Positions 2,364-7,671 of a DNA stretch of 53,721 nucleotides are shown here, piece after piece; the first letter of the stretch is position 1, and every line of letters starts with the position of its first letter. The stretch comes from Syntrophobacterales bacterium (GTDB lineage: Bacteria; Desulfobacterota; Syntrophia; Syntrophales; UBA2210). A program made the translations under genes and the position numbers. The stretch spans positions 1 to 53,721 of the forward strand of contig JAHDRK010000100.1 in the NCBI GenBank assembly GCA_018433345.1, written 5' to 3'. The notes under the pieces were generated by a model. It worked only from the letters and a program-made list of their open reading frames with translations. It searched no databases and was not told the origin of the DNA.

Positions 2364-2966
2364 TCAGATGGTTTTTAACACCAGTTTTTCCAGGCTGACA
2401 CGGGGTCTGGCCTTCGGCGATTGGTCGGGATGTCCAACGGGTAAAAGCACCACGGGGTGAATGCTCTCGCTCAAGGCGAGATAGTCCCTGACCTGATCGC
2501 GATCGAAACGCCCCACCCAGCAACTACCCAGACCCAGGTCCACCGCTTTTAGAACGATATGCTCCACTGCAATGGCCACGTTCATCGAAAGATAGGCCTT
2601 TATCTCCTCATCTCCCCTTTGGGTTCCTGAACCAGGCAGACCGGCAATGTCAAATTCCACCCCTTCGAAGGCCCCTCCCTTGAAAAGCTCTTCCACGCGT
2701 CGTTCCCTGGTTGCCATGACCGTCAGGTCGGCGCAACATACAAAGACAACCGCCGCTTTCACGATAAATTTGTAAGGGGTGAACCGCCCGAGAGCCTCTT
2801 TGGCCCCCGTTGATCGAGCGACGACGAAACGTGAGGGTTGCAGGTTCGACCCGGACGGGGCGAGCCGGGCGGCCTCCAGGAGCTCACGAATTACGTCGTC
2901 CGAGACCGCCTCGTCTTTAAATTTTCTGATACTTCGCCTTAATTGTATTACATCGGAAAATTCCAT
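2364..2966 (-). CDS. nitroreductase family protein
   Basis: 200 residues, the usual length of a single-domain FMN-dependent nitroreductase. The N-terminal RRSIRKFKDEAVSDD and the AARLAPSGSNLQPSRF segment form the conserved phosphate- and FMN-binding start; the C-terminal LGLGSCWVGRF segment is also typical. Members reduce nitro compounds, quinones or flavins, and the substrate cannot be told from sequence. The start at 2966 is well supported by GAGGAGG upstream. A second, divergent nitroreductase lies immediately upstream on the same strand, so the two may be co-expressed. Confidence 0.9.
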   Translation of the reverse strand: MEFSDVIQLRRSIRKFKDEAVSDDVIRELLEAARLAPSGSNLQPSRFVVARSTGAKEALGRFTPYKFIVKAAVVFVCCADLTVMATRERRVEELFKGGAFEGVEFDIAGLPGSGTQRGDEEIKAYLSMNVAIAVEHIVLKAVDLGLGSCWVGRFDRDQVRDYLALSESIHPVVLLPVGHPDQSPKARPRVSLEKLVLKTI

Positions 2967-3054
2967 TCCTGTTCCTCCTCATCCGCAATTTCAACATGTT
3001 AGTCACACAAATCGCACCCCGCTTACATACATCGATCAAAGAAAGGTAAACACC

Positions 3055-3744
3055 TCAATTAAAGGAAACTCCATCAAAACCAACCCATCTCGTTATCTTG
3101 TCAAGAGGTTCTCTCGCGGTCGTGATCGAGTTCACAATGTTTTCATCATCGGGGTAACCGATGGAGACGGCTATAATGAGACGTTTCGATCCAGGTACTC
3201 CTGCATGTCTCCTTACGACGTCCGGATACATGACACCTTGGTCGTGGATGCAGGTGCCCAAGCCGTAATGCATGGCGGCGAGACATATCGTCTGCATCAC
3301 CGCCCCCAGGTCCAACAGCGGCGAGCTCTCCGTCAGGGCCCTGTCTACGGTTATAATGATCACCGCTGGAGAATCGAAGTAGCGGAACCCCCTTTCCGTC
3401 CAGGCGGTCCGCTTCGCCTTGTCTTCCCTGGGGATATTCATTATATGGAAAATCTGCTTTGCCAATTCCACCTGACGGCTTCGATACACGCTATCATTTC
3501 CCCATCCCACCACCTGATGCTCCGGCTCAGGTACCTCACCGGCCCTGAACCTTCTAGAACATTCCTCCTTGATCTTTCGCAACGGCTCACCCTTTATGAC
3601 TACAAATTCCCATGGCTGCGTGTTCATGGCGGAAGGGGCGCGAATCGCTGCCTCCAGAACTTCCCTGATCACTTCTTCGGGAACCGCATCCGGTCTGTAC
3701 GCACGTATACTCTTTCGTTTCTTGATGGCTTCAATAACATCCAT
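3055..3744 (-). CDS. nitroreductase family protein (second copy)
   Basis: 229 residues from the ATG at 3744, which has a strong GGAGGAAGG site upstream; the open frame runs further 5' but that extension looks non-coding. The N-terminus KKRKSIRAYRPDAVPEE and APSAMNTQPWEFVVI carry the FMN-binding pattern, and LGLGTCIHDQGVMYPDV marks the C-terminal half. It is only distantly similar to the preceding nitroreductase, so this is not a recent duplication. Predicted cytosolic FMN oxidoreductase of unknown substrate. The region upstream is a divergent promoter region shared with the flavoprotein gene at 4030, which suggests a common redox theme. Confidence 0.9.
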   Translation of the reverse strand: MDVIEAIKKRKSIRAYRPDAVPEEVIREVLEAAIRAPSAMNTQPWEFVVIKGEPLRKIKEECSRRFRAGEVPEPEHQVVGWGNDSVYRSRQVELAKQIFHIMNIPREDKAKRTAWTERGFRYFDSPAVIIITVDRALTESSPLLDLGAVMQTICLAAMHYGLGTCIHDQGVMYPDVVRRHAGVPGSKRLIIAVSIGYPDDENIVNSITTAREPLDKITRWVGFDGVSFN

Positions 3745-4029: not shown

Positions 4030-5406
4030 ATGAAAACGGCGGTTCTCAACGGAAGTCCCAAGGGGAGCTTAAGCGTGACTCTCCAATACATCCGGTACAT
4101 AGAAAAATATTTTAAAAACCATCACTTCGACTACATGGACATCTCATCAAAAATCTCGGCCATGGAAAAAAAGGAGGACCTTTTTAACGATGTTCTGCGC
4201 CGTATTGACGCATCTGATCTTATAATATGGAGTGTCCCCTTGTACGTATGTCTCGTACCCTCGCAGTACAAACGCTTCATAGAGCTCATTCTTGAAAGAA
4301 ATGCACAGGATAGATTCCGGGGCAAGGCGGCGGCCGTCGTGACCTCATCGATCCATTTTTACGACCACACCGCCCACAATTACATGCGCGGCATCTGTGA
4401 CGACATGGGCATGGTCTTTGCCGGCGCTTTTTCTCCCGACATGTACGATCTCGTCAAAGAGACGGAAAGGAAACGGCTGCTTAATTTCGCGTCGATCATG
4501 TTCGGTGTCGTCGAAAGCGGAAGGAGCTTCAGCCGCGCGTCGAACACAATAAACTACGCCGTGCCCCTGTACATTCCCGGTAGGGAGTCTCCCCCGCTTG
4601 ATGTTCGTGGTAAAAAAATACTCATACTTGCCGACAGGCCTTATGGAGAATCGAACCTTGGGAAAATGATAGAAAGGATGGCGAAGAATTACGGCGGCGC
4701 AGCGAAAGTCCGTTACCTTTCCGACGTGGACATCAAGGGTGGATGCCTCGGATGCTGCGAGTGCGGATTCGATTACAAATGCGTTTACACGGGCAATGAT
4801 GGTTTTATTGATTTCTACAACAACGAAATAAAACCCTCCGACATAATCGTCTATGCCGGAGAGATAAGAGACCGCTACCTTTCAGCAGATTGGAAACGCA
4901 TGTTCGACCGGGCCTTTTTTAACACGCACACCCCAACGCTAACCGGCAAACAAATCGGCTTTCTTGTGTCCGGCCCCCTGCGGCAATTACACAATCTCAG
5001 GGAGATACTGTCGTCCTACGCGGAATGGCAGGCAGCAGGATTGGTTGATTTTGTCACTGACGAGGACACTTCACCGGAAGTGGACGGCAACATCGACACG
5101 TTGGCCGCACGGCTCGTGGAATTCGCAGACAGGGAGTATCTGCCGCCCCCCACCTTTCGCGCCCTTGGAGGAATGAAGGTTTTCAGGGACGATGTATGGG
5201 GGCGGTTGAGATTCGTATTTCAAGCCGACCATAAATACTACGAGGAAAACGGCTTGTACACTTTTCCCCAGGACGACGCGAAGACCATCGAACGAAACAA
5301 GAAAATGATGGAACTCACGTCACATCCAGAATTGCGAGAAAACATCCGTAAAATGATCAAGAGGGAAATGGTAAAACCACATCTGGAGGTGGTGGAAAGG
5401 AAGTGA
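4030..5406 (+). CDS. tandem flavodoxin-fold NAD(P)H/FMN reductase with iron-sulfur flavoprotein motif
   Basis: 458 residues with two flavodoxin-like domains in one chain. Domain 1 (1 to ~175) begins with the FMN phosphate loop LNGSPKGSLS. Domain 2 (~194 to ~370) begins GKKILILADRPYGESN and contains cysteines C239, C242, C245 and C251 spaced CX2CX2CX5C, the compact motif that binds the [4Fe-4S] cluster in iron-sulfur flavoproteins (ISF); C243 is an extra cysteine. Domain 1 has no such cluster. A charged tail (~371-458) follows. Predicted cytosolic electron-transfer or detoxifying flavoprotein. The start is supported by GGGGTGA before the ATG. It overlaps the downstream response regulator/GGDEF gene by 4 nt, implying translational coupling. 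The natural substrate is unknown. Confidence 0.85.
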   Translation: MKTAVLNGSPKGSLSVTLQYIRYIEKYFKNHHFDYMDISSKISAMEKKEDLFNDVLRRIDASDLIIWSVPLYVCLVPSQYKRFIELILERNAQDRFRGKAAAVVTSSIHFYDHTAHNYMRGICDDMGMVFAGAFSPDMYDLVKETERKRLLNFASIMFGVVESGRSFSRASNTINYAVPLYIPGRESPPLDVRGKKILILADRPYGESNLGKMIERMAKNYGGAAKVRYLSDVDIKGGCLGCCECGFDYKCVYTGNDGFIDFYNNEIKPSDIIVYAGEIRDRYLSADWKRMFDRAFFNTHTPTLTGKQIGFLVSGPLRQLHNLREILSSYAEWQAAGLVDFVTDEDTSPEVDGNIDTLAARLVEFADREYLPPPTFRALGGMKVFRDDVWGRLRFVFQADHKYYEENGLYTFPQDDAKTIERNKKMMELTSHPELRENIRKMIKREMVKPHLEVVERK

Positions 5407-6437
5407 ACTTGACCGAAGAAAAAAAAGATGAAATAAAAAAAGTCATGAATGAGCCGATTCCGGTAAAGGTTTTTGTTGTCGATGACGAGCCCGGCACCTG
5501 TGAAACTTTGGCCGACATCCTCAAGTGTGACGGCTACGAGGTGACAACGGCCAATTCGGGCAACGAGGCCCTGGAGATCCTGAGCGGAGACAGCTTCGAT
5601 GTGCTCATTACCGACCTCGTAATGGAAAATATCGACGGAATAACACTGACAAAGATAATTCGCGAGAGGGGTTTTGATTTTCCCATAATTGTAATGAGCG
5701 GCTTTGGAACTATAGAGAGGGCCGTGGAATCGATCAAGGCCGGCGCATGGGAGTTTATAAACAAACCCTTCAACAGCGAACATATAACGATGATCTTGAG
5801 GAAGGTTCTTGAAACGAAGAGGCTCCGCGAACTCGCCCAAGAAAGCGAATACTATAAAACCCTTTCATTCACCGACCCCATGACCGGATTGGCAAACTAT
5901 CGCTCCCTCATGGAAACGTTAAAAAATGAGCTTTATCGGTCCAAACGATATGACCATTCCCTTTCGTTTTTGATAATCGACATCGATGATTTCAAGATAT
6001 GCAACGACACCTGGGGACATTTAACGGGAGATCGCGTTCTGAAAGAAGTGGCCGGAATAATACGTAAAAGCATCCGTGGCTATGACTTCGCAGCCCGGTA
6101 CGGTGGTGAAGAGTTTGCGGTGGTACTCACGGAAACGAAGGGTGATGAAGCTCTCTTCGCGGCGGAGCGAATTCGCCGTAGTATTTTTAATTATAAATTC
6201 AATACCAACGATGGTGCTTCCATTGATACTCCCATATCTGTAAGTATCGGAGTTTCTTCCTTTCCTGACAATGGAGCCACAGAAAAGGAGCTGATCGAAG
6301 CGGCCGACAAGGCCCTCTACCGGAGTAAAAGGGAAGGGAAAAATCAAGTATTCAGTTCTAAACCGGGTCTCCGTGCCGCACATAATCTGCCGGAGCCGGA
6401 GCGGATCATGGCCGAATCACGGCGTAATCAATCGTAG
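5403..6437 (+). CDS. response regulator with GGDEF diguanylate cyclase domain
   Basis: 344 residues. A receiver domain (~20-138) has the acidic pocket D27/D28, phosphoacceptor D71 in LITDLVM and K121 in NKP. A GGDEF domain (~155-318) has the intact active site GGEEF (234-238) and a product-inhibition I-site R225-G-Y-D228 exactly five residues upstream. It should therefore make c-di-GMP from two GTP on receiver phosphorylation and be feedback-inhibited. The architecture is like PleD/WspR with a single receiver. It starts with GTG in a GTGA overlap with the flavoprotein stop. No histidine kinase is adjacent, so the input is unknown. The C-terminal ~25 residues look like an unstructured tail. 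Confidence 0.93.
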   Translation: MNLTEEKKDEIKKVMNEPIPVKVFVVDDEPGTCETLADILKCDGYEVTTANSGNEALEILSGDSFDVLITDLVMENIDGITLTKIIRERGFDFPIIVMSGFGTIERAVESIKAGAWEFINKPFNSEHITMILRKVLETKRLRELAQESEYYKTLSFTDPMTGLANYRSLMETLKNELYRSKRYDHSLSFLIIDIDDFKICNDTWGHLTGDRVLKEVAGIIRKSIRGYDFAARYGGEEFAVVLTETKGDEALFAAERIRRSIFNYKFNTNDGASIDTPISVSIGVSSFPDNGATEKELIEAADKALYRSKREGKNQVFSSKPGLRAAHNLPEPERIMAESRRNQS

Positions 6438-6549
6438 GTTTTGTTTTGCGATGAAGAAGCACGAGGAATGCGCCAATCTTCGGACTTTTTTCCATAAACA
6501 ACAGTTTGGATCAAATCTTCAACAACCATCCGGCTGATCGAAATCTTGT

Positions 6550-7280
6550 ATGATTTACATAGGTACATCGGGATGGAATTACAAGGACTGGAAAGGTCCT
6601 TTTTATCCTACCAGGCTTGCCCCGCGCGACTATCTCGCCTTCTATGCCGAACGGTTTCGCACTGTGGAGATCAACAATTCTTCTATAGACTGCCGGAAAT
6701 AAAGACTCTGGAATCATGGCACAATACGGTTTCGCCAGATTTTGTGTTCGCGGTGAAGGCAAGTAGATATATTACGCATATGAAGAAGTTGAAACAGCCA
6801 AAGGCGGCGCTGCATTCTTTTTTCCACAGAATGGAGGCGCTTGGAGAAAAGCTCGGCCCCGCGCTCTTCCAGTTGCCGCCCCGGTGGGGTTTCAACCGGG
6901 ACCGTTTACAGGCCTTTCTCGAAGAACTGCCCCGGGGGGTTCGTTGTGCCTTCGAGTTTAGGGACGAAAGCTGGCATAACCGGGAGACCCACGATCTCCT
7001 GAGGAGAAACAATGCCGCTTTTTGTATCTATCACCTTGCAAGCAGCTGGTCTCCTTGTGAAATAACGGCCGATTTTATTTATATGCGGCTTCACGGTCCA
7101 GGTGCCCCCTACAAGGGGAAATACAGCGATCCCATCCTTTCTTCTGTGGCAGACAACCTGGCGGAATGGGACGAAAAGGGATCGGATATTTATTGCTACT
7201 TCGACAACGACGAGGCAGGCTATGCCATTCAAAACGCCGCGACCCTCATGGAAATGATTTATCGCAGGAAGGATACATGA
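6550..7280 (+). pseudogene. DUF72 family protein, interrupted by one frameshift
   Basis: The start ATG at 6550 opens a classical DUF72 N-terminus (IYIGTSGWNYKDWKGPFYP, then RTVEINNS), but one base is missing at about 6679-6680. The original frame hits a stop just after, and the rest of the family (FYRLPEIKTLESW, then FEFRDESWHN, YMRLHGPG and YCYFDNDEAG) continues in another frame to the TGA at 7278-7280. Restoring one base gives about 243 residues, the normal length. DUF72 proteins have a TIM-barrel-like fold and unclear function. This is either a real single-base deletion, making it a recent pseudogene, or a sequencing error; the rest of the frame shows no other damage. Confidence 0.85.
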
Positions 7281-7404: not shown

Positions 7405-7671
7405 ATGAAATTTATGGATGCTTTATTTTGGTGGTCTAAACAGCTTTTCATCCTAATGGTTTCCGGTTTTTTCTTTGTCCGGGGCATAGAGGTGTTGATC
7501 GGATCATATGGACTCGATAATCCGCTAAATTTTATAATGTATTTCTTTTCCTCAAGCCTGCTGATACTGGTCAGCGCAAGTATCATGCTCTATCCAATTT
7601 TCAGGATATACGGACGTATGACTGCCGATCCAGGTACAATAGAAATATCTTCGGAAAAGGACGAACCATGA
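7405..7671 (+). CDS. small two-helix membrane protein, unknown function
   Basis: 88 residues with two hydrophobic segments, about residues 10-32 and 40-65, and a charged acidic C-terminus (ISSEKDEP) that is probably cytoplasmic. No family recognised. Its stop overlaps the start of the M16 peptidase gene in an ATGATG arrangement (4-nt overlap), so it is likely translated with that operon and could assist its export or anchoring. The ribosome site before the ATG at 7405 is weak; the ATG at 7414 is an alternative. Confidence 0.6.
   Translation: MKFMDALFWWSKQLFILMVSGFFFVRGIEVLIGSYGLDNPLNFIMYFFSSSLLILVSASIMLYPIFRIYGRMTADPGTIEISSEKDEP

Follow-up and report, generated by a model that had tools for sequence, protein, structure and literature searches.

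We propose, with a probability of roughly three in four, that the two adjoining genes at positions 4030 to 6437 of the 53,721-nucleotide stretch of Syntrophobacterales DNA analyzed here (the window) encode two separate proteins, the first belonging to a widespread protein family related to the iron-sulfur flavoproteins (ISF) of anaerobes but built of two fused halves, and the second being an ordinary receiver-GGDEF (REC-GGDEF) protein; the two would share a transcript through their neighboring position on lineage-specific DNA, with no control of one by the other. The first gene, which we refer to as the flavoprotein gene, has the following parts:

4030 to 5406, forward strand: tandem flavodoxin-fold (FMN_red/ISF-type) protein, 458 aa (open reading frame, Pfam, AlphaFold2 model)
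4030 to 4524, forward strand: half 1, FMN_red domain, approximately residues 1 to 165 (Pfam match at residues 1 to 132)
4051 to 4065, forward strand: GSPKG (G8-S9-P10-K11-G12), putative FMN phosphate-binding loop of half 1
4615 to 5127, forward strand: half 2, ISF-like flavodoxin-fold domain, approximately residues 196 to 366 (hhalign; secondary structure in the AlphaFold2 model)
4744 to 4782, forward strand: CX2CX2CX5C, putative [4Fe-4S] ligands C239, C242, C245, and C251 (motif search and family alignment)
5137 to 5403, forward strand: family-conserved C-terminal helical extension, approximately residues 370 to 458 (AlphaFold2 model and alignment)

The original prediction of two flavodoxin-type domains in this protein is borne out by the Pfam FMN_red model, which matches in two stretches (2.3e-17), and by an AlphaFold2 model of the whole protein (pLDDT 93.2, pTM 0.92) with two flavodoxin-type halves and a C-terminal extension of four helices (residues 376 to 393, 398 to 406, 417 to 430, and 433 to 457). 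The best solved-structure matches of this model come from the azoreductases, quinone reductases, and FMN reductases, at identities of 12 to 18%. For the cluster-bearing half 2, the flavodoxin-type fold is seen in the whole-protein model, in a Foldseek search with a separate half-2 model (pLDDT only 78) that matched AzoR/flavodoxin-type structures, and in profile comparisons with hhalign. The source genome encodes three single-domain ISF-type proteins; with these the half-2 profile aligns at a probability of 95.6 with the cysteines in register, and the half-1 profile at 93.7, through the GSPR loop and PxY region. Sequence searches of solved structures gave no match with the flavoprotein family profile and a chance match only with the half-2 profile.

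The two halves differ in their motifs in a manner that is strongly conserved across the family alignment of 57 rows. Half 1 has the GSPKG loop and a PLY motif and lacks the cysteine cluster; all five loop residues, together with P70 and Y72, are present in 57 of 57 rows. The full cysteine motif lies in the second domain, as first described, where 56 of the 57 rows retain all four cysteines and C239, C245, and C251 are invariant; in shuffled versions of the sequence a CX2CX2CX4-7C pattern arises in only ∼0.01% of trials, and with this degree of conservation the motif is thus not a product of chance. The one departure is a protein of an Ignavibacteriae genome (locus L131, 8001-9371), in which C242 is replaced by Asp. 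An additional cysteine (C243) lies between residues 239 and 251 of the window's protein, outside the CX2CX2CX5C pattern. Within the C-terminal extension, R386, D387, F412, and P413 are invariant.

These features set the protein apart from the systems that it most resembles. With the prototype ISF (Isf of Methanosarcina thermophila) it has in common a flavodoxin-type fold, a compact cysteine motif, and anaerobic hosts, the ISF motif being CX2CX2CX5-7C (PMC3164229). However, ISF is a single domain of ∼190 aa, whereas the flavoprotein consists of two fused halves and a helical extension. Moreover, in the single-domain ISF-type proteins mentioned above, all three from the source genome, the cysteine motif and the GSPR-type loop lie within one domain, but in the flavoprotein they are in different halves; the cysteine-bearing domain is devoid of the FMN phosphate loop, and GSPK(G) is in half 1 only. 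The fold of half 1 is that of the NADPH-dependent FMN reductases, azoreductases, and quinone reductases (PF03358/PF02525; AzoR, NQO2, SsuE), although these are single-domain proteins with no fused second half, and are only distantly similar at the identities given above. To our knowledge, proteins of the AzoR, NQO2, and SsuE group also lack the cysteine motif.

Judging from the motifs, half 1 would bind FMN and half 2 would hold a [4Fe-4S] cluster, such that the FMN and cluster sites may be divided between the halves and electrons could pass between them in a single chain. The protein would then be a soluble reductase or electron-transfer protein, acting as a one-electron to two-electron switch, and its substrates might be small oxidized molecules, for instance quinones, nitro compounds, or oxidants. 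A reductase role is suggested both by the fold group and by gene neighbors, since TetR or PadR regulators adjoin some of the flavoprotein's relatives, and two different nitroreductase-family genes lie in tandem in the window (2364-3744), divergent from the flavoprotein gene:

3055 to 3744, reverse strand: nitroreductase-family protein, divergent from the flavoprotein (Pfam PF00881, 1.4e-31)
2364 to 2966, reverse strand: second nitroreductase-family protein (Pfam PF00881, 2e-30)

One genus-mate has a 62% identical relative of the nearer of these (3055-3744), located on a different contig stretch (L178). Our best guess at the function of the flavoprotein is electron transfer between FMN and [4Fe-4S] in the reduction of small oxidized compounds. 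Half 2 might bind FMN through another type of loop, and a tentative alternative is that both halves do so, the protein being two ISF-type reductases joined covalently as a dimer, with one cluster lost. The retention of the flavodoxin fold in half 2, and an invariant Asn where the GN of the loop would be, are consistent with such an origin, but no GSPR-type loop is found in half 2 in any of the 57 aligned rows, and around the loop position only D202 and N209 are fixed, with residues 207 and 208 varying freely; we regard the linked dimer as possible and not probable. It concerns the first gene only, and is compatible with our reading of the gene order. If confirmed, the division of sites would provide a simple system in which flavin-cluster electron transfer takes place within one chain, in organisms from Spirochaetota and Chloroflexota to Lokiarchaeota.

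The family is widespread but little described, and is apparently unnamed; no NCBIfam model scores above its cut-off with the flavoprotein, and the Pfam matches are generic. Members are present in Spirochaetota, Thermodesulfobacteriota, Chloroflexota, Bacillota, Chlorobiota, Lokiarchaeota, and others, mostly anaerobic lineages, and the remaining interest of the locus lies in such a widely spread family, whose two fused halves seemingly divide the ISF flavin and cluster sites between them. Among 100 relatives the gene is patchily distributed, being present in about one-quarter and absent from all four genus-mates. The nearest relatives of the window's protein are in Spirochaetota, at 62 to 63% identity and below. 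In the family tree it groups with three Spirochaetota rows (100/99), within a clade of six Spirochaetota rows (100/99) that is separate from the other rows of its order. Lateral transfer of the gene, in either direction, is likely from these sequence relationships, although the end branch is long (0.62). We rejected misassignment of the contig as the source of a Spirochaetota-like gene because PhoH, encoded on the same contig, is 82 to 83% identical to that of two genus-mates, and the contig is therefore well placed. Paralogous tandem flavoproteins adjoin each other in one Lokiarchaeota genome (L129) and lie 11 kb from each other in a genome belonging to the window's phylum (L206 and L218). 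Two further loci, L074 and L075 on contig DSDU01000243.1, are identical and inverted with the same flanks, and are possibly an assembly palindrome.

The second gene and its junction with the flavoprotein gene have the following features:

5403 to 5406, forward strand: GTGA, 4-base overlap of the stop with the proposed start (from the sequence; requires GTG as the start)
5403 to 6437, forward strand: receiver-GGDEF response regulator, putative diguanylate cyclase, 344 aa with the GTG start (open reading frame, Pfam, NCBIfam)
5469 to 5795, forward strand: receiver domain with D27, D28, phospho-acceptor D71, S99, and K121 (Pfam PF00072, 3.9e-28, residues 23 to 131; motifs)
5868 to 6347, forward strand: GGDEF domain with active site GGEEF at residues 234 to 238 (Pfam PF00990, 6.7e-47, residues 156 to 315; motif)
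6075 to 6086, forward strand: RxxD inhibitory-site motif, RGYD at residues 225 to 228 (motif search)

The protein has all of the features of the REC-GGDEF class, namely the receiver phosphorylation residues, a GG[D/E]EF active site, and an RxxD site, and the earlier description of an intact GGEEF and RxxD is accurate. Its receiver Asp/Ser/Lys site, GGEEF, and RxxD are as in PleD, WspR, and DgcR (Leptospira). The NCBIfam PleD and DgcR models both match it below their equivalog cut-offs, and we therefore place it in the general REC-GGDEF class and not in the PleD or DgcR families. Proteins with these domains are usually read as phosphorylation-driven diguanylate cyclases with product inhibition; by analogy with the family, a histidine kinase would phosphorylate the receiver, leading to dimerization and c-di-GMP synthesis, and the product would inhibit the putative cyclase at RxxD. 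Its relatives in the window's phylum are 45 to 53% identical, in ten genomes. It is the sole REC-GGDEF protein of the source assembly, which is incomplete (2.13 Mb in 112 contigs), with 6 GGDEF and 29 receiver matches that coincide only at this gene.

The coordinates and reading frames first given for the two genes are correct. Their reported overlap depends on the choice of start codon: it is 4 bases long if translation begins at GTG 5403, but is abolished if it begins at either of the in-frame alternatives, TTG 5409 or ATG 5445, and the TTG has an AAGGA at a normal distance upstream. The suggestion that such tight coupling is unusual did not hold up. Overlaps of exactly 4 bases occur in several other same-strand pairs of the window (e.g., at 7668, 9215, 25484, 31595, and 46404), and the overlap by itself is thus nothing special. 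No promoter-like match was found in the junction, and together with the overlap this makes co-transcription, and hence some shared physiology, plausible; the two genes are probably co-transcribed. We found nothing beyond this probable co-transcription that ties the two proteins functionally.

To compare gene neighborhoods, we predicted genes with a simple caller in the loci of relatives and in 80 flavoprotein loci from named genomes, and screened them for GGDEF and receiver domains. The two genes are adjacent in none of the relatives examined, an outcome named beforehand as refuting the original proposal. None of the 72 named-genome loci with a downstream gene has a GGDEF gene next downstream of the flavoprotein gene, and neither does any of 19 loci in a second, phylum-wide set drawn partly from the same genomes; a conserved operon of flavoprotein and cyclase is rejected by this comparison. 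In the seven Spirochaetota genomes with the nearest flavoproteins, no receiver-GGDEF gene lies beside the flavoprotein gene, and the best matches (31 to 37% identical) are elsewhere; likewise, the ten genomes of the phylum with receiver-GGDEF relatives have no flavoprotein gene within the stretch read. The genus-mates keep the block p88-M16-M16-M20-PhoH with no flavoprotein, receiver-GGDEF, or DUF72 gene adjoining it. Because the pair is not kept among relatives of either gene or in genus-mates, it is a local, lineage-specific arrangement, and appears to reflect a chance local ordering of genes. That the second gene is the only REC-GGDEF gene of the assembly is a point against chance, since chance adjacency is less likely here than in genomes where such genes abound. 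Among the titles and abstracts searched, we recognized no flavoprotein/diguanylate cyclase pair of this kind.

These comparisons bear directly on the proposal that the flavoprotein senses redox and controls the diguanylate cyclase by binding or oxidizing the receiver-GGDEF protein, with cell redox setting c-di-GMP in this lineage. A redox input to c-di-GMP would be notable if true, and the overlap, the lack of a promoter-like match in the junction, and the single REC-GGDEF gene can be read in its favor. Nonetheless, gene order speaks against it, as the pair is missing in all examined relatives of either gene and the flavoprotein is conserved in many phyla with no adjacent cyclase; in addition, the fully retained phosphorylation site of the receiver points to input from a histidine kinase. 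We consider direct control very improbable, and likewise its specific form, in which the flavoprotein would sense redox, bind the product of the overlapping gene, and set c-di-GMP output in the lineage. Of the original proposal, the tandem ISF-like architecture stands and is conserved, and co-expression is plausible, but a meaningful pairing with a diguanylate cyclase is unsupported.

A weaker connection would be joint regulation of the two proteins within a single stress or lifestyle response, such as oxidant exposure combined with attachment, with no physical contact between them. The likely single transcript and the divergent nitroreductase genes next door are consistent with this, as are the TetR and PadR genes beside some relatives, which suggest inducible detoxification genes. 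However, nothing of the arrangement is common to relatives, and any such co-regulation would have to be recent and private to the lineage; we think it unlikely, and favor independent proteins that happen to share a transcript.

Signaling genes do occur near other members of the flavoprotein family. Three loci (L041, L045, and L057) have a CheA-CheB-receiver/SpoIIE-hydrolase run immediately upstream of the flavoprotein gene. The output domain of the L041 response regulator is SpoIIE and not GGDEF, and we therefore rejected this run as evidence of a recurrent signaling partner. A PAS-GGDEF gene upstream in L105, and receiver-bearing genes downstream in L122 and L049, were also considered as partners, but these are single cases that look like chance. 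Downstream of the pair in the window is one further gene:

6546 to 7280, forward strand: DUF72 gene, broken, with the N-terminal part from 6550 in another frame and a stop near 6700

Because its N-terminal part lies in another frame that ends near 6700, it is either a pseudogene or the result of a sequencing error.
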